A stretch of DNA of 39,261 nucleotides, taken from an uncultured Bacteroidales bacterium (GTDB taxonomy: Bacteria > Bacteroidota > Bacteroidia > Bacteroidales > Paludibacteraceae). Shown piece by piece: positions 7,629 to 29,392 of this stretch. The position numbers were made by a program, and so were the translations under genes. The stretch's first letter is position 1, and each line of letters starts with the position of its first letter. The stretch lies in contig CADAZU010000026.1 of assembly GCA_902792535.1 (NCBI GenBank), positions 1 to 39,261 on the forward strand. The letters are read 5' to 3'. The notes below the pieces were generated by a model. That model was given only the letters and a program-made list of their open reading frames with translations, was not told the origin of the DNA and made no database searches.

Positions 7629-7827
7629 CCAATCTCCCTCCCTTGTGGGGAGGGTCGGGGTGGGGTTTGTGGGGCTTTTGATCCTCTTTGCGCTCGCGCT
7701 CCCTTCCTGCCGCGCATGGCGGACGGTCACCACCACCTCCACCTACACCAGCCGAAACGACTCCGCCCAGACCTCGATCTCCATCCAGACCAAGACCGTC
7801 GAGGACTACCAGGGAAAAAAGAAGTAA
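7591..7827 (+). CDS. Small lipoprotein carrying an in-frame palindromic repeat, spanin-like position
   Basis: 78 residues, overlapping the DUF5675-like gene by 38 nt. The lipobox is LPSC at about residues 37-40, after FVGLLILFALA. The mature part (RAWRTVTTTSTYTSRNDSAQ) is short and Ser/Thr-rich. Residues 14-25 (QSPSLVGRVGVG) are encoded by a CCTCCC/GGGAGG palindromic element (7633-7665) just before the hydrophobic core. An outer-membrane lipoprotein overlapping a lysis-like gene recalls o-spanins, but no i-spanin partner is evident. Confidence 0.5.
   Translation: MKKLTSKSKIVTNQSPSLVGRVGVGFVGLLILFALALPSCRAWRTVTTTSTYTSRNDSAQTSISIQTKTVEDYQGKKK
7633..7665 (+). repeat. GC-rich palindromic element, inside the lipoprotein gene
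   Basis: CTCCCTCCCTTGTGGGGAGG followed by GTCGGGGTGGGG. A near-identical copy lies at 7892-7924. It is the clearest example of the family, with stem CCCTCCC/GGGAGGG and a G-rich tail on one side. Confidence 0.8.
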
Positions 7828-7891
7828 AGCCGCAAAGGAGACACGGCTTTAAAGAATGGCTCCGTAACTACTTACTCACACCCTCGCCCTT

Positions 7892-7924
7892 TCTCCCTCC
7901 CTGCGGGGGAGGGTCGGGGTGGGG
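7892..7924 (+). repeat. GC-rich palindromic element, intergenic copy
   Basis: Same unit as 7633-7665 with CTGCGG at the loop. It occupies the gap 7828-7966 together with a short AT-richer stretch; I see no gene in that gap. Confidence 0.8.
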
Positions 7925-7966
7925 CTTTTCCCTCCAAGCGGTCGGGAGTTATGACGACCGCAAACT

Positions 7967-8308
7967 ATGTCTAAAGTAGTATTTTTGGACCCGATTGACT
8001 ACATCTCGGGCAAAATTGCGAAAAAGCATCGTACTATCTACTGCCGCAAAAAGGCTTCCGGACTGAACTACACCACCGTCCATGGCGACCGTACCACCCA
8101 GCCGAGCACGAAGGAGCTGAAAGCACGCGAGCGTTTCACCGCCGTAGCAGCGATGGTTCGGGCGCGTAAGATCGACCTGAGCAAGATCGTCACCGATCAG
8201 GAAGCCTTCCTCGCCCAGAAGGACACCGCTACCGGCGCAAAGACCATGAAGGCCTACCTCTGGCGCGTCTGCGGTCAGGAGTACGACGAGCAGCATCAGA
8301 ACGGCTAA
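7967..8308 (+). CDS. Unknown island protein, 113 residues
   Basis: Starts MSKVVFLDPIDYISGKIAKK. It continues with HRTIYCRKKASGLNYTTV and a helical region (KELKARERFTAVAAMVRARK), ending WRVCGQEYDEQHQNG. The F-DPxxYISGKI...YxR...T..ELKxRxRF pattern is reminiscent of short DUF6266-like proteins of Bacteroidota, though I cannot confirm this. Last gene of the island; a clear terminator follows. Confidence 0.55.
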   Translation: MSKVVFLDPIDYISGKIAKKHRTIYCRKKASGLNYTTVHGDRTTQPSTKELKARERFTAVAAMVRARKIDLSKIVTDQEAFLAQKDTATGAKTMKAYLWRVCGQEYDEQHQNG

Positions 8309-8320
8309 CCGCCGCGACAA

Positions 8321-8347
8321 AAAGCGTCCGAAAGGGCGCTTTTTTTT
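8321..8347 (+). terminator. Rho-independent terminator closing the island
   Basis: AGCGTCC (8323-8329), loop GAAA (8330-8333), GGGCGCT (8334-8340), then seven T. One G-U pair in the stem. Confidence 0.85.
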
Positions 8348-8418
8348 GTTTGGCACGGTATTTGCAACGATCGCTGTGAGCTCACAAAATAACATTGAAA
8401 ATTAAAACATTAAGCGTT

Positions 8419-8751
8419 ATGAAAAAGATTATGATTCTGGCGATAAGCGCCATCGTAGCCGTCAACCTGAGTGCTCAGGAGGCCAAAGCCGAAAAGGCAG
8501 AGTGCAAGAAAGAAAAGAAAGAGTGCAAACTCACACCCGAACAACGCGTTGAGCAGGATATCAAGGTTTTGAGCGAAGAACTCTATCTGAGTGAAGAACA
8601 AGCCGCCAAGTTCGCCGTTACCTACCGCGAGTTCATGGCAGCCAAAGCCAAACTGAACAAGGAGTTTGAAGGCAAGTTCGCCAAAGACCTCAACGCCCGC
8701 CAAGTGAAAGCCGTCCTCCGTTACCACGGACCCAAGCACAAAGAGCCGTGA
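8419..8751 (+). CDS. Secreted small helical protein, unknown function
   Basis: 110 residues from ATG 8419; an upstream in-frame TTG at 8395 is unlikely. Signal peptide MKKIMILAISAIVAVNLSAQ with cleavage after SAQ. The mature part is charged and helical with two cysteines (AECKKEKKECKLTPEQR), then LSEELYLSEEQAAKFAVTYREFMAAKAKL. The LTPEQR plus LSEEQAAKF pattern recalls small periplasmic helical proteins of the Spy/LTXXQ or DUF4890 type, but the match is weak. Flanked by terminators on both sides, so monocistronic. Confidence 0.65.
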   Translation: MKKIMILAISAIVAVNLSAQEAKAEKAECKKEKKECKLTPEQRVEQDIKVLSEELYLSEEQAAKFAVTYREFMAAKAKLNKEFEGKFAKDLNARQVKAVLRYHGPKHKEP

Positions 8752-8765
8752 TCTTATCGCTTCTT

Positions 8766-8787
8766 CTGCCATTAGCAATAGTGGCAG
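8766..8787 (+). terminator. Nine-bp hairpin after the secreted protein gene
   Basis: CTGCCATTA (8766-8774), loop GCAA, TAGTGGCAG (8779-8787), one G-U pair. No T-run follows, so it more likely stabilises the 3' end than terminates. The real terminator is at 8821-8849. Confidence 0.4.
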
Positions 8788-8820
8788 AGGAAGTTTCGTA
8801 TGTGAAAGCACCAAAAAGCG

Positions 8821-8849
8821 CCCAAAAGGACACTTTTGGGTGTTTTTTT
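8821..8849 (+). terminator. Rho-independent terminator
   Basis: CCCAAAAG (8821-8828) pairs with CTTTTGGG (8833-8840) around a GACA loop, followed by TGTTTTTTT. Confidence 0.85.
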
Positions 8850-8856
8850 CAATAAT

Positions 8857-8901
8857 TTTGAATTTTGAATTTTGAATTTTGAATTTTTTGTTGTACCTTT
8901 G
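8857..8901 (+). promoter_or_regulatory. Promoter whose -33 element lies in a 7-bp tandem repeat
   Basis: TTTG recurs every 7 bp (8857, 8864, 8871, 8878) within a TTTTGAA repeat. The -7 TACCTTTG is at 8894-8901. The third TTTG (8871-8874) leaves a 19-bp spacer. It probably starts the long operon from 8910 to 17158. Confidence 0.7.
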
Positions 8902-8909
8902 CAGCCGAA

Positions 8910-9395
8910 ATGAAAAAGTGGCTTTGGATCATACTAATCGGTCTCGCTCTTGCGGCGTGTAACAGACCTTCGCGCGTCGAGCAATACCGCGCTCAGAAAC
9001 ATGCGCAGGACAGTATCCGGCTGGAGGAACAGGTGCGCAGCATGGCGTTCTACCAGAGCCAGCTGGACAGCCTCATGCCCCTTGCCGACAGCCTGATGAA
9101 CGACTTCCGCTACGAGCGAAACGAGAAATACCAGGATCACGGCTTCTACGTCGTGAAGGACGGAAAACAGAAGATCAAAGGACGAAGGATCCTCGTGCGC
9201 GACGACGGCTATGAGATCCTGGTCTATCGGGACGGAAAACGGATCGAGGACGAGAAGGAGAGGAGAAAGGACGAAGGTGCTTTCGCCTTAGCCGAGCACC
9301 TGCAGATCGTCATTCGAGACATACATGAGCTGGAACACAGAATAAGAAAAACCTCATTTGAAATACAAAAATACCAAAAACGATTAACACCATGA
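8910..9395 (+). CDS. Lipoprotein, unknown function
   Basis: 161 residues. Signal MKKWLWIILIGLALAAC with lipobox LAAC (Cys17). The mature part is highly charged and helical (QAQ..RLEEQVRSMAFYQ, EHLQIVIRDIHELEHRIR), likely coiled coil, around a short strand-rich core (HGFYVVKDGKQKIKGRRI). First gene of the operon; its stop overlaps the next start (ATGA). Family not recognised. Confidence 0.7.
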   Translation: MKKWLWIILIGLALAACNRPSRVEQYRAQKHAQDSIRLEEQVRSMAFYQSQLDSLMPLADSLMNDFRYERNEKYQDHGFYVVKDGKQKIKGRRILVRDDGYEILVYRDGKRIEDEKERRKDEGAFALAEHLQIVIRDIHELEHRIRKTSFEIQKYQKRLTP

Positions 9396-9823
9396 GCGAA
9401 TCGAAATACGAGAGCAAGATCACTTCTGCTCCCTGTCCGGCAGAGGACATCTACCGGGTACTGAGTAATTTGGAGAATCTCGAACGCGTGCGCGACCTCA
9501 TTCCCCAAGACAAAATCCAAGAGATGGACATCACACCCGACCGGGTGCGGATGAAAGTAGATGGCCTGGCGCAGAAAATATCCATCGCCATCGTCGATCG
9601 GATTGAGAACGACACCATCAAATTCGGCGCGGAAGGAATACCGATGCAGGCTAATTTCTGGATCCAGCTGAAAGAACTGACCCCCACCGACACACGCATC
9701 AAACTGACCGTCAAAGCCGACATCCCCATGATGTTCAAGTTTATGATTGAGAAGAAACTGCAACAGGGTCTGGACCAAGCCGCCGACATGCTGGCGCAAT
9801 TCCCCTATGCACAATGGAAATAA
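9392..9823 (+). CDS. SRPBCC (START-like) family protein
   Basis: 143 residues. It begins ESKITSAPCPAEDIYRVLSN (the typical first strand and helix), continues with alternating strands (RVRMKVDGLAQKISIAIVDR, IRLTV-like IKLTVKADIPMM) and ends in a long helix (KKLQQGLDQAADMLAQFPYA). This is the helix-grip fold used to bind lipids or other hydrophobic ligands. Its position just before psd may point to a membrane-lipid role, which is inference. Confidence 0.7.
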   Translation: MSESKYESKITSAPCPAEDIYRVLSNLENLERVRDLIPQDKIQEMDITPDRVRMKVDGLAQKISIAIVDRIENDTIKFGAEGIPMQANFWIQLKELTPTDTRIKLTVKADIPMMFKFMIEKKLQQGLDQAADMLAQFPYAQWK

Positions 9824-9827
9824 TACA

Positions 9828-10502
9828 ATGAAAAAATTTAAAATACACCGAGAGGGACGAAATCTCATTAGCGGCACTGTCCTGCTGTTGTTTATCATCA
9901 ACGTACCGATTTATCTGTTTGTGCAGCCGCATTGGATCTTTGCCGTCACGCTGATCCTGACCGCTACGCTGCTGGTGTTTGTCACCTATTTCTTCCGAAA
10001 CCCCGTGCGCGTGCTGGAGATCGACGACCCCAATTTCATCATTGCTCCTGCGGACGGACGCGTCGTGGTGGTCGAACCCACCGAGGAGGACGAGTATTTC
10101 CATGAGAAGAAGCTGCAGGTCTCCATCTTCATGTCGCCCTTCAACGTACATGCTAACTGGTACCCCATCGAAGGAAACATCCTCGTTTCCGAGCACCAGA
10201 AAGGACATCACAAGGGGGCTTGGCTACCCAAATCGAGCAAGGAGAACGAGCGCTCTCTGGTCGTCATTGAGACGCCCAGCAAAGTGCAGATCGCCGTTCG
10301 CCAGATAGCCGGAGCGATGGCACGACGCATCGTCACCTACGCCAAACCCGGACACCAGGCGCACCGAAACACCCACCTCGGTTTCATCAAACTCGGTAGC
10401 CGCGTGGACATGTACCTGCCCCTCGACACCGAGATGTTCGTCGCCGTAGGCGAACACGTCCGCGGAAACGAAACCATCATCGGACGCCTTAGCGACAATT
10501 GA
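9828..10502 (+). CDS. psd: Phosphatidylserine decarboxylase, short form
   Basis: 224 residues from ATG 9828, five bases after the SRPBCC stop. It converts phosphatidylserine to phosphatidylethanolamine. An N-terminal membrane segment (LISGTVLLLFIINVPIYLF) and a second (FAVTLILTATLLVFVTYFF) precede the catalytic part: IIAPADGRVVVVE, VSIFMSPFNVHANWYPI, GHQAHRNTHLGFIKLGSRVD. The Gly-Ser in KLGSR is where the proenzyme cleaves itself to form the pyruvoyl group. The length fits the short Psd type of Bacteroidota. A pssA gene is often adjacent in this phylum but is absent here. Confidence 0.92.
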   Translation: MKKFKIHREGRNLISGTVLLLFIINVPIYLFVQPHWIFAVTLILTATLLVFVTYFFRNPVRVLEIDDPNFIIAPADGRVVVVEPTEEDEYFHEKKLQVSIFMSPFNVHANWYPIEGNILVSEHQKGHHKGAWLPKSSKENERSLVVIETPSKVQIAVRQIAGAMARRIVTYAKPGHQAHRNTHLGFIKLGSRVDMYLPLDTEMFVAVGEHVRGNETIIGRLSDN

Positions 10503-10547
10503 AAATGTGAAAATGTGAAAATGTAAAAATGTGAAAATGTGAAAATT
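10500..10547 (+). repeat. Six tandem 8-bp units TGAAAATG between psd and deoC
   Basis: Units start at 10500, 10508, 10516, 10524, 10532 and 10540; the fourth has A for G and the last ends TT. The psd stop TGA is the first three bases of the first unit, so the array begins at the stop codon. Confidence 0.85.
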
Positions 10548-10557
10548 GGATAATACT

Positions 10558-11436
10558 ATGAACTTTGAAGAATTATTTGCGCAGTACCCCTGCCCGTTTA
10601 CCGATGAGCAAGTGAAGGCTCTGGTAGCTGAAATCGAAGAAAAACACTTCGCTGAGAACAACAACGTAGAGGTGTGGAAAGAGTGCCTCCACCAGATCGA
10701 CTACACCACCCTCTCTGCCGACGACACGATCGCCAAAGTGGAGAAGATGGCGAACGCGGTCAATAACTTCGAACGCGACTTCCCCGGTATTCCGAACGTA
10801 GCTGCGATCTGCGTTTACCCCGCGATGGCGGAGTATGTGCGCAAGGCGCTGAAAGACCCGAAATTCAATATCGCCTGCGTCAGCGGTGGTTTCCCTGCTT
10901 CGCAGACTTTCCTCGAGGTCAAAGTGGCAGAGACCGCGATGGCTATCAAAGCCGGTGCAACCGAGATCGACATCGTCCTCTCCGTTGGTAAGTTCCTCGA
11001 GGGCAACTACCAGGAGTGCTTCGACGAGATCAGCGAACTGAAAGCGGTCTGCGGAGACAAGCACCTCAAAGTGATCCTCGAGACCGGGCTGCTCAAAACG
11101 GCAGAGAACATCTGGAAAGCGTCCATCCTCTCCATGGCTGCCGGCTGCGATTTCATCAAGACCTCGACCGGAAAGATTGCTGTCAACGCTACGCCGGAGG
11201 CAACCTTCGTTATGTGCCATGCCATCAAGGCTTGGCGCGAGAAAACGGGCGTCAAGATGGGCTACAAACCCGCCGGAGGCGTTTCCACCACAGACGAAGC
11301 CGTACAGCATTTCACCCTCGTCAAAGAGATCCTCGGCGAAGAGTGGCTCAACAACGAATCCTTCCGCTTCGGCGCTTCCCGTCTGGCGAATAACCTGCTG
11401 AGTTCGATTGTAGGAAAAGAAACAAAATATTTTTAA
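10558..11436 (+). CDS. deoC: Deoxyribose-phosphate aldolase
   Basis: 292 residues from ATG 10558. It cleaves 2-deoxyribose-5-phosphate to glyceraldehyde-3-phosphate and acetaldehyde. Schiff-base lysine in CDFIKTSTGK and the second active-site lysine in GYKPAGGVST; also VCVYP-like AAICVYPAMAEYV and GATEIDIVLSVG. The length is that of the longer DeoC class. Located between psd and the diaphorase fusion with 3-bp spacing to the latter, so probably co-transcribed. Confidence 0.95.
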   Translation: MNFEELFAQYPCPFTDEQVKALVAEIEEKHFAENNNVEVWKECLHQIDYTTLSADDTIAKVEKMANAVNNFERDFPGIPNVAAICVYPAMAEYVRKALKDPKFNIACVSGGFPASQTFLEVKVAETAMAIKAGATEIDIVLSVGKFLEGNYQECFDEISELKAVCGDKHLKVILETGLLKTAENIWKASILSMAAGCDFIKTSTGKIAVNATPEATFVMCHAIKAWREKTGVKMGYKPAGGVSTTDEAVQHFTLVKEILGEEWLNNESFRFGASRLANNLLSSIVGKETKYF

Positions 11437-11439
11437 ATA

Positions 11440-13824
11440 ATGAATAAGATTCTCTCCAAGAGATTTTTCTCAGCCAATGTAGCGGAGCTCGTTGTGGAAG
11501 CTCCGCTCATTGCTCATAGCCGCAGAGCCGGACATTTTGTGATCATTCGTGTGGACGACAAATCCGAACGTGTGCCCCTGACCATCGCCGGAGCAGACAT
11601 AGAGAAAGGTACGATCACGCTGGTCGTGCAACAAGTAGGTGCCTCCACCCATAAACTGCTGGCGATGGAACCCGGCGAGTGCCTGCACGACATCGTGGGT
11701 CCCCTCGGACGCGCTACGCGCATAGAGAAATACGGAACGGTCGTGTGCGCGTGCGGAGGCGTCGGTGCTGCGCCTATGCTCCCTATTGCCGAAGCACTCA
11801 AGAAAGCCGGAAATAAAGTCATCACAGTCCTCGCTGCACGCAACAAAGACCTTATCATCCTCAAGGATGAACTCGCACAATGGTCCGACGAACTGATCGT
11901 CATGACCGACGACGGCTCCATGGGCAAACAGGGCGTCGTGACGGTCGGCGTGGAGGAAGTGATCAACCGCGAACCGGTGAACAAATGTATCACCATCGGT
12001 CCGGCGATCATGATGAAGTTCGTCGCCCTCACCACCGCCAAATATAACATCCCCACCGAAGCATCGCTCAACACCATCATGGTGGACGGAACGGGCATGT
12101 GCGGCGCCTGCCGCGTCACGGTAGGAGGCAAGACCAAGTTCGTCTGTGTGGACGGACCTGAGTTCGACGCCCACGCAGTGGATTGGACCGAAATGCTCAG
12201 CCGAATGAAGTCCTACAAAGCCGAAGAGACCGAGGCTATGGAGAAGTATCGGAACAACCCCACCCCAACCCTCCCCTCAAGGGAGGGAATAAAGGATGCC
12301 CGCAAAGAACCTGTCTCCTCCCTTGAGCGGGTGAAGAGCTCTGCTCGATCGGACTGCCGGTGGCCGTCCGTAGAACTCGCGGGAGGGGTTTCCAAATTCA
12401 CCGGAACCGCCAAAGACCGCGTCGCCATCCCGCGTGTACAGATGCCGGAGCTGCGTCCCGAGGTGCGCGTGAAGAGCCTGCGCGAGGAGGTGAACCAAGG
12501 TCTGACCTTCGAGCAAGCCATCACGGAATCCCACCGCTGCCTCAACTGCAAGAACCCCACCTGCGTACAGGGCTGCCCGGTCAACATACACATCCCCGGA
12601 TTCATCAAGAAAGTCGAAGAAGGCGACATCCTCGGAGCAGCGGCAATTATCAAAGAGAGTTCGTCTCTCCCCGCTGTCTGCGGACGCGTCTGCCCGCAGG
12701 AGAAACAATGCGAAGCGCATTGTATCCATCTCAAGATGGGTCACCCTGCCGTCGCCATCGGCTATCTGGAGCGCTTCGTAGCAGACTACGCCAATGAACA
12801 AACAACTTCAAACTCTCAAACAGGCGAAGCCGCAAACGCAAGCGGAGCTTGCAATAAACCGGCAACGAAGATTGCTGTCGTTGGTTCCGGTCCTGCCGGA
12901 CTGACTTTCGCCGGCGACGCAGCCAAATACGGCTACGAGGTGCATGTGTTCGAAGCCCTGCACGAGATCGGCGGAGTGCTCAAATACGGTATTCCGGAGT
13001 TCCGTCTGCCGAACGCCATCGTGGACCAAGAGATCGACGGTCTGCGTGCGCTCGGCGTACAGTTCCACACAGACACCATTATCGGCAAGACCATCTCCGT
13101 CAAAGAGCTGGAGGAGCAAGGCTTCAAGGGCATTTTCGTCGGCTCGGGAGCAGGTCTGCCGCGATTCATGAACATACCCGGAGAGAACCTGAACGGCGTG
13201 CTCTCCTGCAACGAATACCTGACCCGCGTGAACCTCATGGACGCTTCGAACCCGGAGACCGACACACCGCTCCTGTACGGCAAGAACGTAGCCGTCATTG
13301 GCGGAGGCAACACCGCCATGGATGCCGTTCGTACGGCGAAACGGTTAGGCGCTGAACACGCCATGATCATCTACCGTCGCAGCGAGGAAGAGATGCCGGC
13401 GCGTGTCGAGGAGGTCAAGCATGCCAAGCAAGAGGGCATTGAGTTCATGACGCTCCATAACCCGATTGAGTACCATGCGGACGAGAACGGACGTGTCTGC
13501 GAAGCTGTGCTGCAAGTGATGGAACTCGGCGAACCCGATGAATCAGGACGCCGCAGCCCGGTCCCCGTGGAAGGCAAGACCCTCACTATTCCGGTCGATT
13601 TAGTGATCGTAGCGGTCGGTGTAAGCCCCAACCCGCTCATCCCGTCCTCCGTGGAAGGACTGGAGATCGGCAAGAAAGGCACGATTATTGTGAACGAACA
13701 AATGCAGTCCGCTATCCCGACCCTTTTCGCCGGAGGCGACATAGTACGTGGAGGCGCAACGGTCATCCTCGCTATGTCCGACGGACGCAAAGCTGCCAAA
13801 GCAATGCATGAGTATCTTTCTTAG
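11440..13824 (+). CDS. NfnAB-like fusion: NAD-binding diaphorase domain plus glutamate-synthase small-subunit-like domain
   Basis: 794 residues. Residues 1-270 are a ferredoxin-reductase-type FAD/NAD domain with a [2Fe-2S] site (C221, C224, C236). From about 320 a GltA/NfnB-like part has two [4Fe-4S] sets (C367/370/375/379 and C414/418/424/428), then FAD-binding VGSGPAGL and NADP-binding VIGGGNTAMD. In Bacteroidota this fusion is common and annotated as DHOD B NAD-binding subunit / NADPH-dependent glutamate synthase; a role in NADH/ferredoxin:NADP electron bifurcation is inferred. The linker (273-318) carries palindromic repeat DNA (NNPTPTLPSREG), and a second insert at about 453-474 is heptad-repeat derived. 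All Cys ligands are intact. Confidence 0.93.
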   Translation: MNKILSKRFFSANVAELVVEAPLIAHSRRAGHFVIIRVDDKSERVPLTIAGADIEKGTITLVVQQVGASTHKLLAMEPGECLHDIVGPLGRATRIEKYGTVVCACGGVGAAPMLPIAEALKKAGNKVITVLAARNKDLIILKDELAQWSDELIVMTDDGSMGKQGVVTVGVEEVINREPVNKCITIGPAIMMKFVALTTAKYNIPTEASLNTIMVDGTGMCGACRVTVGGKTKFVCVDGPEFDAHAVDWTEMLSRMKSYKAEETEAMEKYRNNPTPTLPSREGIKDARKEPVSSLERVKSSARSDCRWPSVELAGGVSKFTGTAKDRVAIPRVQMPELRPEVRVKSLREEVNQGLTFEQAITESHRCLNCKNPTCVQGCPVNIHIPGFIKKVEEGDILGAAAIIKESSSLPAVCGRVCPQEKQCEAHCIHLKMGHPAVAIGYLERFVADYANEQTTSNSQTGEAANASGACNKPATKIAVVGSGPAGLTFAGDAAKYGYEVHVFEALHEIGGVLKYGIPEFRLPNAIVDQEIDGLRALGVQFHTDTIIGKTISVKELEEQGFKGIFVGSGAGLPRFMNIPGENLNGVLSCNEYLTRVNLMDASNPETDTPLLYGKNVAVIGGGNTAMDAVRTAKRLGAEHAMIIYRRSEEEMPARVEEVKHAKQEGIEFMTLHNPIEYHADENGRVCEAVLQVMELGEPDESGRRSPVPVEGKTLTIPVDLVIVAVGVSPNPLIPSSVEGLEIGKKGTIIVNEQMQSAIPTLFAGGDIVRGGATVILAMSDGRKAAKAMHEYLS
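12256..12388 (+). repeat. Palindromic element pair inside the NfnAB-like fusion gene
   Basis: AACCCCACCCCAACCCTCCC then CTCAAGGGAGGGA (12256-12288) is the family unit in reverse orientation. About 25 bp later CCTCCCTTGAG (about 12317-12327) and CTCGCGGGAGGGG (about 12376-12388) bracket a further 50 bp as an imperfect inverted pair. The whole block is read in frame as the linker between the two enzyme halves. Confidence 0.75.
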
Positions 13825-15190
13825 CATATTACTCTCCGTCAACTTCCTGACGAGCCACCCGATCACAGGGCAGGCGAATATGTCTGTGCTGGTCCAGAAC
13901 CTGACGACCGGAGAAGTGATCGACAGCTACCGGGAAGACTATGTCGTGCCGCCGGCTTCCGTCATGAAACTGCTGACGACCGGAGCGGCTCTGGAGACAC
14001 TCGGACCCGGATTCCGCTTTCCGACGACCCTCGAATACAGCGGCACGATCGAGAACGGCGTGCTCCGCGGCGATCTCTATATCCGCGGAGGGTGCGATCC
14101 TTCGCTGGGCTGGAAAGGCAGAACGGCTTTTCTGGATAAATGGGTGAAGGCGGTCCAAGCCGCCGGCATCCGGCGTATAGAAGGAGCCGTGATAGCCGAC
14201 ATGACCATGCTGGACGGCGAAGCGCAGAATCCCAACTGGCTCTGTGAGGACGCAGGAAACTACTACGCACCGGGAATCTTTGCGCTCAATTACTACGGCA
14301 ACACGATGAACATTGTGCTGCAGAGCGGCGAACCGGGCAGCGTCGCCAAAGTGATCAAGACCGAACCCGCGGTGGAGGATGTCTATTTCATCAACCATAT
14401 ACGGTGCGACAAGATCACTTACGATGGCGCTTTTGTGAGCGGTCTGCCCTACAGCCGCGAGCGATACCTGACCGGAGCGGTGCCTTCCAACTTAGGCACG
14501 TTCGGCGTCAAAGGAGACCTGCCGAATCCCGGTCTGCTGCTGGCGCGACACCTGACCGCCAAACTCAAAGAAGCAGGCATCCCGACCCTGCGCGACGCGA
14601 ACTATACCGCGGACTATAACCCGCTCACGCCACCCCGGACGGAACTGTACATCCATTATTCGGAGCCGCTGTCGGAGATCATAAAGGAGACCAACGTCAA
14701 CAGCAACAACTTATATGCCGAGGCACTATTCCGCTATCTGGGCACGCGCTACACGCTGCCCGGCACGATCCACAACAGTCAGGATTTGCTGCGCGACTAT
14801 TGGCGGAAAAGAGGTGTCTCTATCCAGCGCGCGATCATCAAAGATGGCTGCGGTCTCGCGCCGCAAGATGCTGTCAGTGCCAAGACGTTTGTGCAACTGC
14901 TGACGATCATGTCCGGCAGCGAGAACAAGGACGCGTGGTTCGCTTCGCTGCCCGTTAGCGGACAAAGCGGAACACTCAAAACACTCTGCCCGCAGACCGA
15001 ATTAGAGGGACGCATTCATGCCAAGAGCGGCACGATAGCAGGAACAAAGAACTTCGCCGGATACATCGACATGCCCAACGGAGACACCTGGGTCTTCGCG
15101 ATTCTCATTAACTCCGCGCCCGGCAAGGCAAAGAATATACAAACCGTGATCCAACAATACCTGTTAGATGTATATAGAGCGCACCAATAG
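13808..15190 (+). CDS. dacB: D-alanyl-D-alanine carboxypeptidase/endopeptidase (PBP4 type)
   Basis: 460 residues from ATG 13808, which overlaps the preceding stop. Signal-like start MSIFLSILLSVNFLTSHPITG. Active-site SxxK is S51-V-M-K54 (PPASVMK), SxN is SNN in NVNSNNLYAE, and the KTG motif appears as KSG in HAKSGTIAG. Peptidase S13 enzymes trim or cleave D-Ala crosslinks in the periplasm. The Thr-to-Ser change in KTG is mild and activity is likely kept. The next gene, birA, starts inside its 3' end (23-nt overlap). Confidence 0.92.
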   Translation: MSIFLSILLSVNFLTSHPITGQANMSVLVQNLTTGEVIDSYREDYVVPPASVMKLLTTGAALETLGPGFRFPTTLEYSGTIENGVLRGDLYIRGGCDPSLGWKGRTAFLDKWVKAVQAAGIRRIEGAVIADMTMLDGEAQNPNWLCEDAGNYYAPGIFALNYYGNTMNIVLQSGEPGSVAKVIKTEPAVEDVYFINHIRCDKITYDGAFVSGLPYSRERYLTGAVPSNLGTFGVKGDLPNPGLLLARHLTAKLKEAGIPTLRDANYTADYNPLTPPRTELYIHYSEPLSEIIKETNVNSNNLYAEALFRYLGTRYTLPGTIHNSQDLLRDYWRKRGVSIQRAIIKDGCGLAPQDAVSAKTFVQLLTIMSGSENKDAWFASLPVSGQSGTLKTLCPQTELEGRIHAKSGTIAGTKNFAGYIDMPNGDTWVFAILINSAPGKAKNIQTVIQQYLLDVYRAHQ

Positions 15191-15992
15191 TACCAACACG
15201 CTCATGCGCGAAATGATCGCCAAAGGCGAATGGCAGGCAGGCGAGGAATACCTCTATACCGGCTTTCAGACTGCCGGCAGAGGACAGAGCGGCAACGGAT
15301 GGGAGAGCGAAGAAGGAAAGAACCTGCTGTGCTCCATATTATTGAGCCATCAGCCATCTGAAGTCAGCGGGGTCAGACCTGCTTTCTACCTCAATGTAGC
15401 GGTCTCCGTCGCGGTGCACAAGGTAATTCGGTCTGTACTCTGTCAGGCGGAGCCGGTCTGTACTCTGTCAGGCGAAGCCGGTCTGACGATCAAGTGGCCC
15501 AACGACATCTATTGGGGAGACCGAAAGGTCGCAGGAATATTGGTGGAGAACACCCTCGTCGGCAGCGAAGTACTATACTCCATCGCCGGAATAGGGCTCA
15601 ATGTGAACCAGACGGAGTGGCTCACCAACGCGCCCAACCCCGTCTCCATGCGACAGATCAGCGGAGAGGAGTACGACATCCATGAGTTGATGAGAGCGCT
15701 GATGGACGAGATACACACCGTCCTCGCCATGGACACGGAAGAAGTGTGGACGTATTATCGCACCCACCTCTACCGCCGCGAAGGCTTTTGGCCCTTCGTG
15801 GAGCGCGAAGTGAGTATAGCACCCACTATGAACTACTCCCCCTCTCTTGAGAAGAGGGACGGGGAGAGCTTAGAACGACCGATCTTCCTCGCGAAAATAG
15901 AAAACATACGGGCAGACGGGGAGCTGGAACTCCGGGACCAAGAAGGCAACCTGCGTATATACCACTTCAAAGAAGTGAGATACGTGCTGTAA
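15168..15992 (+). CDS. birA: Biotin-[acetyl-CoA-carboxylase] ligase with three repeat-derived inserts
   Basis: 274 residues, without the N-terminal DNA-binding domain of bifunctional BirA. Motifs: RTNSTNTLM, GRGQSGNGW (biotinyl-AMP loop), IKWPNDIYWGDRKVAGILVE, SIAGIGLNVNQ. It attaches biotin to carboxylase carrier proteins. Three stretches look foreign: SHQPSEVSG (heptads, about 15345-15370), the 25-bp tandem repeat coding for about CQAEPVCTLSGEAG (15430-15479), and PTMNYSPSLEKRDGESLE (palindromic element, 15836-15868). All lie at likely surface loops and keep the frame. Overlaps dacB by 23 nt. Confidence 0.92.
   Translation: MYIERTNSTNTLMREMIAKGEWQAGEEYLYTGFQTAGRGQSGNGWESEEGKNLLCSILLSHQPSEVSGVRPAFYLNVAVSVAVHKVIRSVLCQAEPVCTLSGEAGLTIKWPNDIYWGDRKVAGILVENTLVGSEVLYSIAGIGLNVNQTEWLTNAPNPVSMRQISGEEYDIHELMRALMDEIHTVLAMDTEEVWTYYRTHLYRREGFWPFVEREVSIAPTMNYSPSLEKRDGESLERPIFLAKIENIRADGELELRDQEGNLRIYHFKEVRYVL
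15430..15479 (+). repeat. 25-bp tandem repeat inside birA
   Basis: Two copies (15430-15454 and 15455-15479) differ at one base, followed by a partial third (GGTCTG). Because 25 is not a multiple of three, the copies are read in different frames and any change in copy number would break the gene. Confidence 0.85.
15836..15868 (+). repeat. Palindromic element inside birA
   Basis: CTCCCCCTCTCTTGAGAAGA then GGGACGGGGAGAG; core CCCTCT-CTTGAG-AAGAGGG with a G-rich tail. Same family as 27875-27909 in ribD (CCCTCTCTTGAGGAGAGGG). Confidence 0.75.
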
Positions 15993-18739: not shown

Positions 18740-19762
18740 TTACGATTTTTGGCATTTTTCTGCCATAAAGTGCGCCAAATACTCCTGTTCCGGCTGTCCT
18801 GAAGTGGGAATAAACTCAATGGAAGCCCCACCCGACTTCCCCATAGAGGGGAGGAGAGAGAGAGCATCCAAGTCCATAATCGTAGAATATCCGGAGCGAA
18901 AGATAATATGTTTGGCGCCCTTCAAAGCCGCCGCCAACTCTTCGTCCCCCATATAAGGCACGATGGTAATAGCTCCTCTTTTGATGCGTGTGTTGGGTCG
19001 GTTCAAGAGTCCCTGCACGATCAGCACTTTTTCTTGGGAGTCCCTGTATCGCGCTACCAACTCCCGCTCCAACATCGTCCGTTGCGGCTCCAAGCCGCTG
19101 AGTACAGCAACGACACCGTAAGTCGTTTGTGGTTTGCAGTTTGTACTTTGCGCGAACCGGCTCAACGGACCGATGTACTCGATGTTGCTGAAGGCTGATG
19201 GCTGATGGCTGATAGCCGGATGTCCCAATTCGCCACTCAGGCTCTTTTCCGGCTCCTCATAATCAGGTACCCACACCTTATTATATCGCGTGTATATGCG
19301 TGCGTGCAGGCGCGCAACGAGCGGCTCCAGCCACCGCCAGCCCTTCGGCAGAAAGATATGAAGTTGATGCGTGATATAAACGGTGATTGGGGATGAGGGA
19401 TTTGTGGTTTGTGATTGGTGACTGGTGTATAGTCCGAAACGGTTGTCGGAGACCACCATGTCGATCTTTTCTTCGCGGAGGACGGCTTGCAGCATCACAT
19501 GGTCTTTATACGCCCATGCTACCAGTTTCGGCAGCGCTTTGATCATTGCCCACACCTGCCTTTTGCCCTTGCCGTAACGCAGGTTCAAGGGAGCCAGAAA
19601 GACATACCTGCATTTCGGAAAATGCCGCCGCAGTAACGTCAGACTCATTCCGTCGCCGCCCAAGATCACTTCATTTCCTTCGTCCAGAAAACGCTGCACA
19701 AGAGGCACGCAACGGCTTGCGTGTCCCAATCCCCAGTTCAACGGTGCGACTAAGATCTTCAT
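18740..19762 (-). CDS. GT-B glycosyltransferase (MurG/MGDG-synthase-like) with four repeat-derived inserts
   Basis: 340 residues. KILVAPLNWGLGHASRCVPL is the N-terminal Gly-rich loop of UDP-sugar GT-B enzymes; the C-terminal part has VVAVLSGLEPQR, VQGLLN, HIIFRSGYSTIMDL and IPTSGQPEQEYLA, the usual nucleotide-sugar site. Substrate unknown, likely a lipid or cell-envelope acceptor. Four stretches look inserted: about 113-127 (TSHQSQTTNPSSPI), 183-193 (AISHQPSAFS), 206-214 (STNCKPQTT) from heptad DNA, and 301-315 (LSLLPSMGKSGGASI) from a palindromic element, directly before FIPTSGQPEQ. It overlaps the radical SAM gene by 4 nt. Confidence 0.85.
   Translation of the reverse strand: MKILVAPLNWGLGHASRCVPLVQRFLDEGNEVILGGDGMSLTLLRRHFPKCRYVFLAPLNLRYGKGKRQVWAMIKALPKLVAWAYKDHVMLQAVLREEKIDMVVSDNRFGLYTSHQSQTTNPSSPITVYITHQLHIFLPKGWRWLEPLVARLHARIYTRYNKVWVPDYEEPEKSLSGELGHPAISHQPSAFSNIEYIGPLSRFAQSTNCKPQTTYGVVAVLSGLEPQRTMLERELVARYRDSQEKVLIVQGLLNRPNTRIKRGAITIVPYMGDEELAAALKGAKHIIFRSGYSTIMDLDALSLLPSMGKSGGASIEFIPTSGQPEQEYLAHFMAEKCQKS
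18827..18865 (-). repeat. Palindromic element inside the glycosyltransferase gene
   Basis: GCCCCACCCGACTTCCCCAT then AGAGGGGAGGAGAG; core CTTCCCC-ATAG-AGGGGAG with the CCCCACCCGA tail typical of the family. It is read in frame as LLPSMGKSGGA. Confidence 0.7.
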
Positions 19763-22557: not shown

Positions 22558-23292
22558 TTAATCGTTGTACCATAAATAAATACCGACTTTGATATTCCAC
22601 TGATCCAACCGTCCGCGGGTGTGACGTCCGCTCACGAAATCCGCATTCCTATACGGATTCAGCAAACCGAAATCATACCCTCCGCGCAAGAAATAGCGCC
22701 TGTATTGGAATCCCGCGCCGACACCCCAGGTCACATTGAACCGTCTGAGCGCCTCGTCGTTCACCGTCGTTGTGTAAGCGCTGTTTTTGGCGCCATACGT
22801 GGTGGTAATATCGCCGGTGTTGAAATCCTGTTCACGCGTGTCCTGGCGCATCGTGAATGCCAGACCGCATTGGATCGTCGGACCGGTATAAAGCATCAGA
22901 TACGTCTCTTTGGCGATCTCAAATTTGTACTGCCAGTCCACATACACTTCCAACTCCTGATAAGTGATCAATGCACGGTCCTTCGGGTACTCGTTAAAAC
23001 GCGGATTGCGTGATTTCCAGCCGCCGTTCGACATGCCGAAGGTATAGTTCAATCCGATGGACGAACCGAAACCCTTGACATAACTCGCGTCATACACCAA
23101 ACCCACTTTGAAACCATTCAGCTTGATGGTATTTGCCAGCGAATCACTGGGGAAAGTGGTGTTCGGGCTATTCAGTCGCAATATCGGCTGAGCCCAACCG
23201 ATTTGCAATCCAAAACCCTGCTTCGGCATGTCCGCCGCACTCATCCCGATAGCCATCATAGCTACCATCAACGTCAAAAATACTTTCTTCAT
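22558..23292 (-). CDS. Outer-membrane beta-barrel protein
   Basis: 244 residues. Signal peptide MKKVFLTLMVAMMAIGMSAAD. The mature part alternates polar and hydrophobic residues in strand-length runs (GFGLQIGWAQPILRL, GFKVGLVYDASYV, GFGSSIGLNYTFGM, WGVGAGFQYRRYFLRGGYDFGL) and ends KVGIYLWYND, typical of small porin-like barrels. The exact role is unknown. It follows the OstA-like gene by 15 bp, so an envelope-biogenesis link is plausible. Confidence 0.8.
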   Translation of the reverse strand: MKKVFLTLMVAMMAIGMSAADMPKQGFGLQIGWAQPILRLNSPNTTFPSDSLANTIKLNGFKVGLVYDASYVKGFGSSIGLNYTFGMSNGGWKSRNPRFNEYPKDRALITYQELEVYVDWQYKFEIAKETYLMLYTGPTIQCGLAFTMRQDTREQDFNTGDITTTYGAKNSAYTTTVNDEALRRFNVTWGVGAGFQYRRYFLRGGYDFGLLNPYRNADFVSGRHTRGRLDQWNIKVGIYLWYND

Positions 23293-23307
23293 ATATCCTT
23301 TATCCTT

Positions 23308-24855: not shown

Positions 24856-24875
24856 CCTAATACTATGTCTCCTTT

Positions 24876-26204: not shown

Positions 26205-26225
26205 AATCTGTCCCTTCTCCTCCTC

Positions 26226-26253
26226 TCCTCCCTTGAGGGGAGGTCGGGTGGGG
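26226..26253. repeat. Palindromic element between the two PpiC/SurA-type genes
   Basis: TCCTCCCTTGAGGGGAGGTC then GGGTGGGG. It nearly fills the 53-bp gap between the lipoprotein stop (26258) and the SurA-type start (26204), so it is transcribed in the operon and may form a hairpin between the two genes. Confidence 0.8.
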
Positions 26254-26257
26254 TTAT

Positions 26258-27106
26258 TCAATAAAACTTTACCTTCTGCTTTTGGATCGCCTCGTTATAC
26301 AGCCGCTCGCGTTCCTTGTTCAAAAACTCCACCTGCCGAGCACTCAGCACGATCTTTTCTATCGTCGGACGGGCATACTCGATCGGCATTTTCTCGCCCG
26401 CTAACTGTTTCTCCGTCACCTGCAGAATATAGGTCTTCAGGCTGTCGCTCACCTCGATCTGGTTCTTGCTCTTCAGCTCTGCCTCCATCGCGCTACGGCT
26501 CAACGGAATCTGGCTCATCAACTCGCTGGTCGTCTTCCATCGGTCGTCAAATAACTCATATCCGTTCGCGCTCTTGTACGCAAATTTCTCTATCTCATCC
26601 ATCTTCCCTTTGCTCATCCACCCGCGCAACTTAGCAATATCTTTTGCGTCTTTGGGCACAACTACCAGCATTCCTTTCACCACACTCTCTTCCAGCACAA
26701 ACTGCTCCGGCATCTGTTCGTAAACCTGCATCACAACCGAATCCGGCACCACTTTAGGCATTTTCCGCTCCACTAAATATTCCTCGTACGCCTGCACGTA
26801 CAACATTCTTCGGTACTCTTCCACCATCTCATCTATCTTCTTCGTCCTTTCGCCTTTCATTTTCATCCTTCCCTGCGCTTCTTCATACACCAACTCGTCC
26901 TTTGCCCATTGACTCACATATTGCTGTACTGCCCTCAGACTGTCCTCCGCACTCATGCCAAGCGTCAGCGAATCCAAAGTCGAACGGTATAGATACACAC
27001 CGTTCACTTCTACCGCCGCACCACTCTGAGCTTTCTTCTCGTACGCCGCACAACTACTCAACAAAAATCCTGCCAATAGGAGCAAAAGAATCTTATTCTT
27101 TTTCAT
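26258..27106 (-). CDS. PpiC/SurA-like lipoprotein
   Basis: 282 residues from ATG 27106; ATG 27118 is possible. Signal MKKNKILLLLLAGFLLSSCAA with lipobox LSSC. The mature part is helical: EVNGVYLYRSTLDSLTLGM like a SurA N-domain, KDELVYEEAQGRMKMKG, VLEESVVKGMLVVVPKDAKD and C-terminal IEKIVLSARQVEFLNKERERLY. It lacks a clear parvulin active site, so it is probably a SurA-like chaperone rather than an isomerase. First gene of the minus-strand envelope cluster; promoter at 27136-27167. Confidence 0.8.
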   Translation of the reverse strand: MKKNKILLLLLAGFLLSSCAAYEKKAQSGAAVEVNGVYLYRSTLDSLTLGMSAEDSLRAVQQYVSQWAKDELVYEEAQGRMKMKGERTKKIDEMVEEYRRMLYVQAYEEYLVERKMPKVVPDSVVMQVYEQMPEQFVLEESVVKGMLVVVPKDAKDIAKLRGWMSKGKMDEIEKFAYKSANGYELFDDRWKTTSELMSQIPLSRSAMEAELKSKNQIEVSDSLKTYILQVTEKQLAGEKMPIEYARPTIEKIVLSARQVEFLNKERERLYNEAIQKQKVKFY

Positions 27107-27135
27107 AAATCTGCACATTATTCCAATTTCGGGCA

Positions 27136-27167
27136 CAAAGGTAATACATTTTTTTGAAATATGCAAG
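27136..27167 (-). promoter_or_regulatory. Promoter of the envelope-protein cluster
   Basis: Minus strand: CTTG (complement of 27164-27167), CATATTTC, A-tract, TACCTTTG (complement of 27136-27143); spacer 20 bp. It could serve all genes down to 18740. Confidence 0.78.
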
Positions 27168-27217
27168 AAATTCTATTTTTTAATGCTTTTTTTTCGTCAA
27201 AATAATGCACCTCTTTG

Positions 27218-27321
27218 TATTATATACATAGTATATAATACTGTATAGTGTGAAATGCACAATTTAGTGCGTGATAAGTGCGTGATAAGTGTGTGATAAG
27301 TGCGAGATAAGTGCGAGATAA
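27218..27321. repeat. AT-rich palindrome and five 11-bp tandem repeats
   Basis: TATTATATAC-ATA-GTATATAATA (27218-27240) is a perfect 10-bp dyad flanked by two AATGCAC copies (27203-27209 and 27254-27260). Next come five 11-bp units GTGCGTGATAA, with variants GTGTGTGATAA and GTGCGAGATAA, starting at 27267, 27278, 27289, 27300 and 27311. The repeat period is close to one helical turn. There is no gene in 27168-27359. Confidence 0.75.
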
Positions 27322-27359
27322 TTGGGGTACATTGCTATGAGATGCAGAATTATTGCAGC

Positions 27360-28472
27360 TCAAGGATTAAGTATCGTGTACATCTTATGCCCGTCGCAGC
27401 ACTCATACCTCTCCGGCAAACTGATCTCTGGAGCCTTCACTCCCTCGCCGATAGTGATCTCCGGCGCTACTTCCACATGTATCTCATCCCATACACCGGA
27501 CGCCAAAATAGAGTTCAGCAGCGTCGTACCGCCTTCCACCAAAATGGAATGAATACCTCTCTCTGCCAGATCCGCCAACACATAATCCCACTCCGTCCGC
27601 TCGCGATAGACAATAACCGGATCTATTCCCTTATATTCGCTCTCGGTAGGTGCAAAAATCCTCGATTTCATCGGCAGTTTTCCGTGTCTGTCAACCGTCA
27701 CACGAATAGGATTTCTTCCCTCCCAATGAGTGTTCATTAGACGCGGGTCATCCAGCAAAACGGTATTCGTCCCAACCATAATTGCCATATTCTCCGCACG
27801 CATTTTATGCACTAACCTCTTCGTCTCCGCCGTCGATATAGCCAACGCTCCATTTAAATGATGTTGCGCACCGTTCTCCCTCTCTTGAGGAGAGGGCCGG
27901 GGAGAGGTTTCCCTCCTCCTGTCTATAAACCCATCCGCCGTTTGTGCCCATTTCAAGATCACGTAAGGACGTTTCTTCTCATGCAGACACAGAAAACGCT
28001 TGTTCAACTCGCGGCACTCTTTCTCCATCACACCCACTTCCACTTCAATCCCTGCCTCGCGCAACATCTGCACACCTTTGCCTGCCACTAACGGATTCGG
28101 ATCCAACATACCCACAACAACGCGCCCCACACCTTTCTCAATAATCAACTTGGCGCAAGGAGGTGTCTTTCCATAATGCGAACAAGGCTCCAGACTCACA
28201 AACAGCGTACACTCCGACAAATTGATATCCCGATATTCCGATTGCTCGAAATTCCGGAAACAATTCACCTCAGCGTGCGGTCCTCCGAACCGCTCATGCC
28301 ATCCCTCAGCAATAATTATCCCCTCATTTCCTCCCGTTAAGGGTCTTCCCCCCTGCATGGGGGGACAGAGGGGGGCGACCAACACCGCTCCCACCATCGG
28401 ATTCGGCGCAACAAAATACTCGCCTCTACGGGCAATTTCGATACAACGGGCAATATAATTTGCGTATTCCAT
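27360..28472 (-). CDS. ribD: Riboflavin biosynthesis deaminase/reductase with two repeat-derived inserts
   Basis: 370 residues. Deaminase domain: zinc site H66-A-E68 (GGPHAEV), C97 and C106 (PCSHYGKTPPC). Reductase domain: YVILKWAQTADG, NTVLLDDPRL, ILVEGGTTLLNS. It acts in two consecutive steps of riboflavin synthesis. Residues about 34-51 (PLCPPMQGGRPLTGGNEG) lie between GAVLVA and IIAEGWH, where relatives have only a few residues. About 188-208 (ETSPRPSPQEREN) lie after DGFIDRRR. Both are coded by CCTCCC/GGGAGG palindromic elements. Zinc ligands and reductase motifs are intact. Confidence 0.94.
   Translation of the reverse strand: MEYANYIARCIEIARRGEYFVAPNPMVGAVLVAPLCPPMQGGRPLTGGNEGIIIAEGWHERFGGPHAEVNCFRNFEQSEYRDINLSECTLFVSLEPCSHYGKTPPCAKLIIEKGVGRVVVGMLDPNPLVAGKGVQMLREAGIEVEVGVMEKECRELNKRFLCLHEKKRPYVILKWAQTADGFIDRRRETSPRPSPQERENGAQHHLNGALAISTAETKRLVHKMRAENMAIMVGTNTVLLDDPRLMNTHWEGRNPIRVTVDRHGKLPMKSRIFAPTESEYKGIDPVIVYRERTEWDYVLADLAERGIHSILVEGGTTLLNSILASGVWDEIHVEVAPEITIGEGVKAPEISLPERYECCDGHKMYTILNP
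27875..27909 (-). repeat. Palindromic element inside ribD (reductase part)
   Basis: TCTCCCTCTCTTGAGGAGAG then GGCCGGGGAGAGGT; core CCCTCTC-TTGA-GGAGAGGG with G-rich tail. It is coded as the SPRPSPQERE stretch. Confidence 0.8.
28329..28377 (-). repeat. Palindromic element inside ribD (deaminase part)
   Basis: Core CCCCCC-TGCAT-GGGGGG in 28348-28364, preceded by TCCTCCCGTTAAGGG and followed by GACAGAGGGGGCG. It sits in the strand-loop just before the IIAEGWH segment. Confidence 0.75.
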
Positions 28473-28490
28473 TTATTTTTTGTAATTTTG
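28459..28490 (+). promoter_or_regulatory. Promoter for prmC (near-leaderless)
   Basis: TTTG at 28459-28462, 20 bp, TAATTTTG at 28483-28490, then CAGCCG. The likely transcription start (about 28496-28500) is at or next to the TTG start codon 28499. The -33 lies within the ribD start region. Confidence 0.7.
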
Positions 28491-28498
28491 CAGCCGAT

Positions 28499-29392
28499 TT
28501 GAAGAACCTGATAACACATATTGCCTCCCGACTCCAAGACGTTTACCCTGCCGACGAAGCAGAAGCTTTGGCGTGGTGGATTGCCGAAGAATTGACCGGG
28601 CGCACTCGCACCGAACTGCTTTTCGACTGCAAAAGTACTACAAATTTTCCACATTTGCAAATCGGAGACCCCTTTTTAGAGCAAATTATTGCACGTTTGT
28701 TGCATTTTGAGCCGATTCAGTATATTTTCGGGCACACAATCTGGAACGGTCTGGACCTCAAACTCACCCCTGCCACACTCATTCCCCGCCCTGAAACCGC
28801 GGAATTAGTAGAGCGCATCAATAATCTTCAAATCTTTAAATCTTCAAATCCTCAAATACATCTGTTGGATGTCGGAACCGGTTCCGGCTGTATTGCTATC
28901 GCGCTCAAAAAAGCGCACCCGGAATGGCAAGTTACCGGCATAGACATCTCCCCTGAAGCCGTCGCGGTAGCAAAAGAAAACGCACTCCGAAATAACGTAT
29001 CTGTAAACTTCCAAGTAGCCGACATTTTCTCCGATGGAATCGAACAAACTTTCAACGTAGTTGTCTCCAATCCTCCCTATATCTGCGAAAGCGAGAAGAA
29101 AGACATGCGCCCGAACGTACTGAACCACGAACCCTCCTCTGCGCTCTTTGTGCCCGATTCCGATCCGCTCCTCTTCTACCGCCGCATCGCTACTCTAATC
29201 GCAAATCACAAATCACAGATCACAAATTCCTCCCCCTTTAGGGGGACCGAGGGGGCTTATCTCTTCTTCGAAATCAACGAATCATACGCCTCGGAACTAT
29301 CCGCCATGCTCGGCGGATTAGGCTATACCGACATCCTAATAACAAAAGACATCTATGGCAAAGACCGAATTATCGAAGGCAGAATGGCTTAG
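28499..29392 (+). CDS. prmC: Peptide-chain-release-factor glutamine N5-methyltransferase with two inserts
   Basis: 297 residues from TTG 28499 (MKNLITHIASRL); the upstream TTG 28460 is inside the promoter. Motifs: QYIFGHTIWNGLDL, IPRPETAEL, LLDVGTGSGCIAIAL (SAM), SNPPYICESE (catalytic NPPY). It methylates the GGQ glutamine of release factors. A heptad stretch at about 28826-28862 encodes LQIFKSSNPQI just before LLDVGTGSG. A second block at about 29202-29256, heptads plus a palindromic element, encodes NHKSQITNSSPFRGTEG before YLFFEIN. Both are in frame and at domain edges. recX starts within its 3' end. Confidence 0.93.
   Translation: MKNLITHIASRLQDVYPADEAEALAWWIAEELTGRTRTELLFDCKSTTNFPHLQIGDPFLEQIIARLLHFEPIQYIFGHTIWNGLDLKLTPATLIPRPETAELVERINNLQIFKSSNPQIHLLDVGTGSGCIAIALKKAHPEWQVTGIDISPEAVAVAKENALRNNVSVNFQVADIFSDGIEQTFNVVVSNPPYICESEKKDMRPNVLNHEPSSALFVPDSDPLLFYRRIATLIANHKSQITNSSPFRGTEGAYLFFEINESYASELSAMLGGLGYTDILITKDIYGKDRIIEGRMA
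28630..28661 (-). promoter_or_regulatory. Promoter for ribD inside the prmC coding region
   Basis: Minus strand: TTTG (complement of 28658-28661), 20-bp spacer, TACTTTTG (complement of 28630-28637). It faces ribD and lies about 158 bp upstream of its start, so the ribD leader would be antisense to the 5' end of prmC. Confidence 0.65.
29228..29256 (+). repeat. Palindromic element inside prmC
   Basis: TTCCTCCCCCTTTAGGGGGA then CCGAGGGGGC; core TCCCCCT-TTA-GGGGGA. It follows heptads of the ATCACAA type, so both repeat types share one insertion site. Confidence 0.75.

Follow-up and report, generated by a model that had tools for sequence, protein, structure and literature searches.

Short palindromic elements lying in frame within conserved genes of an uncultured Bacteroidales bacterium

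Rickettsia palindromic elements (RPE) are dispersed repeats, also reported from Wolbachia, that are found in frame within conserved protein genes as well as between genes; the accessible part of the review describing them counts 19 reading frames and one tested host protein, and gives an element length of 105-146 bp (PMC2229807). Among repetitive extragenic palindromic (REP) sequences, most of which lie between genes, GTAG and CGTC types have been described as hairpins within open reading frames (ORFs), with DNA-repair genes among the hosts and with copies forming dimers, and CGTC repeats have been reported from Bacteroidetes, as far as the accessible part of that source goes (PMC3733652). In subclass 2.4 of tnpAREP, a group abundant in Bacteroidetes, REPs occur in frame in a variable peripheral region of the gene, again according to the accessible part of the account (PMC6006769). 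Here we describe E1, a family of short palindromes that lie in frame in conserved genes of an uncultured Bacteroidales bacterium of the Paludibacteraceae. The stretch analysed (the window) is the 39,261-nt contig CADAZU010000026.1 (C26 of the draft) of assembly GCA_902792535.1, and the own genome to which it belongs is a 2,374,475-base draft in 84 contigs with a completeness of 82.65. The presence of protein-coding palindromes in Bacteroidales, a branch very different from Rickettsia, appears to be new: a literature search that reached few subscription papers found no description of such elements in Bacteroidales genes, and the accessible parts of PMC12306157 and PMC5771137 hold no account of this case.

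E1 is a dispersed and structured family of patchy occurrence, of which the copies called coding sit in frame in their host genes. It is probably a non-autonomous, REP-like palindromic mobile element, and we infer that it moves and that its inserts are expressed. The short form consists of a 7-bp hairpin (stem CCCTCCC/GGGAGGG) with a C-rich tail and mostly measures 34-37 nt. A covariance model, R1, built from 19 copies of the own genome that are counted among its matches, yielded 95 matches in that genome at E up to 1, and dropping the 26 with E of 0.01 or more left at least 69 copies at E<0.01, these counts being lower bounds as 150 of 500 candidates were scored. In the 49 copies of 37 nt the stem pairs are retained in 46 to 49 copies, and two-sided changes turn C-G into T-A at one pair (14 copies) and T-A into C-G at another (6 copies). 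A pattern search of the own genome with up to 3 mismatches found 17 copies, versus 0 for the reversed pattern. In the window the stem pattern, with up to 3 mismatches, gave 10 matches at 8 places, because two palindromes match on both strands, versus 0.30 expected, a number not equalled in any of 100 shuffles. On its own the tail pattern is far less distinctive (20 matches in the window versus 8.19 expected). Rfam recognised two tRNAs only in the window and gave no match to the E1 elements, and a G-quadruplex motif is present in 20 of the 69 copies according to a motif check only. Copies occur in both orientations and at times as inverted pairs, e.g. in the window and in RecF of three congeners (G083, G065 and G034), and the spread over 36 congeners is patchy, ranging from 0 to 90 copies.

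Next to the short form there is a long form of about 79 nt, in which the E1 arms accompany a near-invariant core of about 50 nt (CGGGTGAAGAGCTCTGCTCGATCGGACTGCCGGTGGCCGTCCGTAGAAC) with two further hairpins, and which exceeds the short form by 45 nt (15 codons). The own genome yielded 10 matches to it and is one of 14 among the 61 genus genomes that contain it, with none for the reversed control. Of 38 distinct copies 19, coming from several genomes, agree completely over 46 nt of the core, the hairpins of which display two-sided changes at three pairs (GAGC/GCTC to GGGC/GCCC, the outer C-G to T-A and the inner C-G to T-A). Judged by their peptides, RecF of G083 holds five inserts, two of which are long forms, and one RecF site has the short form in G083 and the long form in G034 between the same flanks, 15 codons apart, so that either form can take the place of the other, or be derived from it, without a change of site.

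The copies in the window, their host genes and the repeats that accompany them are the following.

7632-7668, minus strand: E1 short form between genes, i.e. between a stop at 7628 and the next frame (R1 61.7 bits)
7891-7927, minus strand: E1 short form in a doubtful 87-residue frame with no Pfam match and no coding signal (R1 50.9 bits)
11440-13824, plus strand: host gene for an NfnAB-like fusion (Pfam Fer4_20, Pyr_redox_2 and DHODB_Fe-S_bind; orthologues L094-L173)
12255-12291, plus strand: E1 short form in the interdomain linker of this gene, in frame (NNPTPTLPSREGI; R1 58.1 bits), missing from the 22 aligned orthologues
12315-12391, minus strand: E1 long form with arms and a core of about 50 nt, in frame (SSLERVKSSARSDCRWPSVELAGGV) and in the opposite orientation to the copy at 12255
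15168-15992, plus strand: host gene birA (Pfam BPL_LplA_LipB)
15836-15872, minus strand: E1 short form in birA, in frame (YSPSLEKRDGESL; R1 45.4 bits)
18740-19762, minus strand: host gene with no Pfam family at E 1e-5
18823-18858, plus strand: diverged E1 in the latter gene, in frame (SLLPSMGKSGGAS; R1 12.5 bits, E 0.046)
26223-26256, minus strand: E1 short form in a 53-nt gap between two genes of the ORF table (R1 35.7 bits)
27360-28472, minus strand: host gene ribD with two inserts (Pfam; alignment with a solved RibD)
27874-27910, minus strand: E1 short form in ribD, in frame (ETSPRPSPQEREN; R1 56.9 bits; orthologue table)
28344-28376, minus strand: GC-rich hairpin of a diverged type in ribD, in frame (PPMQGGRPLTGGNEG), with no R1 match
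28460-29392, plus strand: host gene prmC (Pfam; alignment with a solved HemK/PrmC)
28814-28865, plus strand: 8-nt tandem array in prmC, in frame (NNLQIFKSSNPQ); congeners have palindromes or other arrays at this site
29198-29227, plus strand: tandem array (AAATCACA-like) in prmC, in frame, immediately before the palindrome
29228-29259, minus strand: diverged E1-like hairpin in prmC, in frame (SSPFRGTEGA; R1 10.4 bits, E 0.19)

A preliminary description of the window had listed nine hairpins as a single family, seven of them inside genes and in frame. All nine exist, at or within about 15 nt of where it had placed them. Their unity holds for six, which score strongly under R1 (35.7-61.7 bits; 7632, 7891, 12255, 15836, 26223 and 27874), five of these having been among its training copies; those at 18823 and 29228 are weak, and the one at 28344, being unmatched, represents a hairpin of diverged type. 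At the latter ribD site five congeners do match E1, and the prmC hairpin at 29228 is common to congener G083 and missing from most others. The number inside supported genes has to be lowered to six (12255, 15836, 18823, 27874, 28344 and 29228), all of which keep the frame as was claimed; the hairpins at 7633 and 26223 lie between genes, the latter being readable only via a TTG upstream of the MKKYIY start (ORF table, by inspection), and that at 7892 lies in the doubtful short frame. The long form at 12315-12391 had been overlooked, and the label glycosyltransferase for the 18740-19762 gene is not borne out by Pfam.

This last gene has three more repeat-like inserts (SHQSQTTNPSSPI, AISHQPSAFSN and STNCKPQTTYG), of which the first is absent from three orthologues and the others are variable. 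Further tandem arrays with 8- or 11-nt units are situated at 30429-30496, 10494-10554 and 27266-27331, and a 59-nt direct repeat (476-534 and 632-690, 95% identical, 156 nt from start to start) lies near the contig start.

Protein alignments revealed extra residues at eight sites, namely two in IleRS (30 genomes), two in RibD and one each in PrmC, BirA, the NfnAB linker and the 18740 gene. At the aligned sites some close congeners share the insert (e.g. G083 in RibD and PrmC), while others have a short loop or something else. BirA gained about 6 residues compared to its nearest orthologue, the site being a short loop in four of six orthologues and holding other residues in two, and the product of the 18740 gene is 8 residues longer than three orthologues. 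Compared to solved homologues, the extra stretches of DapA are the short form, at 72-83, and the long form, at about 193-221, the extra stretch in HisRS of G021 is a long form, and RibD shows two gaps. At the six in-gene sites of the window no orthologue was found with the same residues and no repeat, short loops or other inserts being present instead; more distant Bacteroidales were covered for the NfnAB-like gene alone. By this protein, the nearest named relatives (L094-L101) are 84-88% identical in the best segment and 86-90% in an alignment of seven; they are metagenome genomes labelled uncultured Bacteroidales, one of them labelled Paludibacteraceae and coming from goat reticulum. R1 found no match in the 28 of 80 loci from named relatives that were searched, and around the NfnAB-like gene the closest named genomes thus lend no support. 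In DNA alignments to these relatives there was no counterpart at 7633 or 7892, and the alignment of the NfnAB linker was noisy; protein alignments were used instead.

The hosts are mostly recognisable proteins, many of them with housekeeping roles. Of the 48 copies called coding in the own genome, two are both in IleRS and the hosts of the other 46 were scanned with Pfam, 43 of them having a family; the hosts named from Pfam domains include RsmH, Dus, KsgA, LpxD, CCA/polyA polymerase, RibBA, TatC, BirA, GlmS, DapA, SpoU, Ham1 and TsaD, next to RibD and PrmC. By inspection of the Pfam tables, 20 of the 43 hosts have the copy inside the best matched domain stretch, and 10 have it between two matched domains, e.g. 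RibBA, DAHP synthase-chorismate mutase and GlmS. In three own-genome proteins (C2:64340, C25:3262 and C51:2044, listed as L054 2466-3059, L056 1337-2572 and L079 777-2117) the element directly follows a hydrophobic N-terminal stretch, by eye a signal peptide, of which it may therefore form the end.

We compared the placement of E1 with that of random positions. Under a plain frame rule (a copy inside an open frame of at least 150 residues and at least 25 residues from either end), 54 of the 69 own-genome copies lie in frames, versus 81% of random positions (P 0.54; all P values are approximate, as the copies are non-independent). Since such shares are near those of random positions, genes are at most mildly avoided by E1 in this genome, and a location mostly outside genes, which would have made the in-gene copies a matter of chance, is not what we found. 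A stricter rule scores codons over the whole frame; together with the plain rule it replaced a 40-codon flank score, which proved too weak (59% of random positions, 25 of 69 elements). The share of coding rows among loci from four rich congeners was 18 of 30, versus 76.5% of random positions; four of the 30 (L280, L286, L290 and L292) scored another copy than the fetching one, and L286 repeats the copy of L266. For the long form 18 of 30 loci were coding versus 69% of random positions, with L320 and L336 scored non-coding though their hosts read by inspection as AroA-like and RnpA-like. If two thirds of the insertions in genes broke the frame and vanished, about 59% of copies would be found in genes; more are observed, and this excess may also come from a faster decay of intergenic copies.

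The E1 sequence family extends beyond this lineage. Across the order, R1 matches at E up to 1e-4 were obtained in at least 31 of 295 genomes and at least 26 of 183 genera (23 candidates scored per genome). A sample of 20 stretches from seven genomes of five other families, picked from the listed best matches, placed the copies mostly outside genes: 3 of 33 (the 6 weakest of 39 matches being dropped) lie in long frames under the plain rule, versus 72% of random positions. The difference from the own genome is marked (Fisher 2.8e-11), a P value that is too small because copies within a genome are related. Thus a mainly extragenic position, a broad trait of REPs, characterises the related copies and not those of this genome. 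Some other-family copies form inverted pairs. In one genome of another Bacteroidales family (G234; L294, L296 and L297) palindromes of the same type, several of them nearly identical, stand outside long frames in inverted pairs about 71 nt apart.

The loops that hold E1 in this genus hold other repeats as well. We read six loops, belonging to IleRS, PrmC and RibD, each in 30 genus genomes with the own genome included, and 168 of the 180 loop sequences were located, the other 12 being excluded. Tandem arrays with a period of 7-15 nt were present in 40 of the 168, versus 0.3-2.8% of control segments from the same loci, and E1 in 14 of the 168, counting simple matches in which 23 or more of 34 letters agree; arrays are entirely absent from one of the six loops. 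RecF displays the same mixture of palindromes and arrays, six of 30 loci having been excluded for want of the search motifs. Different species have different array units, and certain units are found again in unrelated genes; an example is GTCAACCGACG, present in IleRS of G007, G022 and G035 and, by peptide, in the NfnAB linker of L096, L098 and L101. Because the same loops carry palindromes and differing arrays, with some units recurring in unrelated genes, we keep as a tentative reading, rated somewhat below even, that surface loops of housekeeping proteins in this genus might be shared landing pads on which unrelated repeat families (short and long palindromes, tandem arrays) replace one another at the same loop between species. 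If so, loop variation in the core proteome would have one of its main sources in repeat DNA, E1 would have its principal habitat in coding sequence and meet no barrier there, and the last repeat that landed would set the sequence of the loop.

These arrays also speak for another explanation, according to which loops grow by a general process (slippage, template switching or ectopic conversion) and the palindrome is one of many pick-ups, with no mobile element at work; the remodelling of residues beside the inserts points the same way, as does the RecF site at which one congener has the short form and another the long. However, a defined unit of mostly 34-37 nt with conserved ends and a covarying stem recurs in unrelated genes and species, the core of the long form is identical in half of its distinct copies from several genomes, and in other families the palindrome is dispersed, sometimes paired, outside genes. 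We therefore consider loop growth without a mobile element rather unlikely.

A canonical GTAG REP system, in which a dedicated REP-associated tyrosine transposase (RAYT) encoded in the same genome moves the REPs, would account for short hairpins in tens of copies with some inverted pairs, and 40 of the 61 genus genomes have matches, nearly all of them below the family cut-off, to REP transposases at E up to 0.001. Yet the sole genome above this cut-off, G009, has no R1 match at E up to 0.001, and the own genome, itself incomplete, has five sub-threshold matches only. Moreover, in the 37-nt copies, to which the tests of the hairpin foot apply (the 20 copies of other lengths being excluded), GTRG (GT[AG]G) was found in none of 49 on either strand, and CGTC near the foot in 3 of 49 on one strand and 0 on the other, which does not make E1 a CGTC REP. 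The 35 loci fetched around transposase-like matches, which come from the own genome and congeners, contained no clear R1 match: the best reached 13.8 bits (E 0.058), followed by 9.4 bits (E 0.98). Both the foot motif and the neighbourhood thus weaken the canonical system, which is an improbable source of E1. Many of the Y1-like proteins encountered (L019-L023, L205-L233) are about 350-450 residues long, and by eye some adjoin restriction-modification genes.

As to the peptides, most readings of E1 are open (in 35 to 64 of the 69 copies, depending on the reading), and the coding copies use both orientations and all six phases, though unequally (18, 13, 10, 3, 3 and 1). Pro-Pro slows ribosomes. 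Readings with Pro-Pro are used by 5 of 48 copies versus 13.75 expected under equal use of the open readings of each copy (P 0.00026), a shortage which suggests selection on the peptide, with harmful readings removed, and which fits selection against harmful readings rather than for a peptide function. The unequal use may have another cause, for instance a preference in insertion. The calling of frames by itself forces the loop variants of the 'opp0' reading to lack TGA, and these were therefore excluded as evidence. Recruitment of the inserts for a function, be it as RNA hairpin, docking peptide or part of a signal peptide, could be read from the three hosts with an element right after a hydrophobic N-terminal stretch and from a hairpin maintained by two-sided changes. 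It is nevertheless quite improbable, more so than the canonical REP system, as the insert at a given loop differs among congeners or is missing, the hosts are unrelated to one another and every orientation and phase is in use. An artefact of assembly or binning, conceivable for an incomplete draft in many contigs that is probably metagenome-derived like its nearest named relatives, can practically be dismissed, as can the idea that the repeats occupy spurious frames: separate genomes share an insert and its site (IleRS in G000 and G065; RibD in G000 and G083; RecF in G083, G065 and G034), nearly all scanned hosts have Pfam families, and reversed-pattern controls gave no matches.

For a REP-like mobile element, the following course of events would fit. 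The hairpin would be moved as DNA by an enzyme acting in trans and would land almost anywhere; insertions that break a fold or a frame would be lost, those read through in an open frame at a tolerant loop would persist as peptides, and these peptides would then decay by substitution and small in-frame changes. Several observations weigh against this reading. Inspection by eye revealed no target-site duplication in the flanks or at RecF sites, no exact empty site was found, and no enzyme was tied to E1 in the 35 loci that were fetched around part of the Y1/RAYT-like matches. Under the codon-scored rule 48 of 69 copies are coding versus 81% of random positions (P 0.02), slightly below random. 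As gene-breaking copies would score as non-coding, the statement that coding copies are always in frame holds by the method of calling. In the core of the long form three other pairs fail to form in 3 to 7 of the 15 distinct sequences. The expectation of clean, element-sized insertions at loops was borne out as to the extra residues in loops and linkers; the inserts are often not clean, because neighbouring residues also differ, RecF included, and the gain in length varies. Finally, AlphaFold models give a predicted local distance difference test (pLDDT) score below 50 to the BirA insert (residues 219-236, in a loop between strands; seven rows) and the NfnAB-like linker (residues 275-315; 29 rows), which is compatible with inserts in loops and no proof of it, since other segments of both models score equally low.

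One sequence family that is mostly extragenic in some lineages and mostly intragenic in another offers a comparison set up by nature. The genus has some 60 genomes available, with several sites in each protein, so that the tolerance of essential enzymes to inserts of about 12 to 28 residues becomes measurable (how often, where and in which reading), and the long-standing question whether mobile DNA supplies new protein segments becomes directly testable. A caution for annotation is that odd-looking repeated peptides in such genomes can belong to real genes.

Alignments and copy placement support the likeness to RPE proposed in the preliminary description, that of palindromic elements in frame in conserved genes. 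Like RPE, as presented in the accessible part of the review, E1 is a dispersed multi-copy palindrome found in frame in conserved genes and also between genes; unlike RPE it resides in Bacteroidales and measures mostly 34-37 nt, or about 79 nt, instead of 105-146 bp (PMC2229807). It differs further in having about three quarters of its copies in long frames and in that sister species have other repeats at the sites it occupies. This comparison is one of descriptions. With the intragenic GTAG and CGTC REPs, in so far as the source is accessible, E1 shares hairpins within ORFs and paired copies, and it differs from them by having neither tag as a rule and by its high in-gene share (PMC3733652). 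In subclass 2.4 of tnpAREP, going by the accessible part of the account, the host is the transposase gene itself, whereas the hosts of E1 are unrelated genes (PMC6006769); such a transposase was not found beside E1 in the 35 loci examined. By analogy, then, E1 is an element that works like RPE and does so without the tags of GTAG and CGTC REPs.

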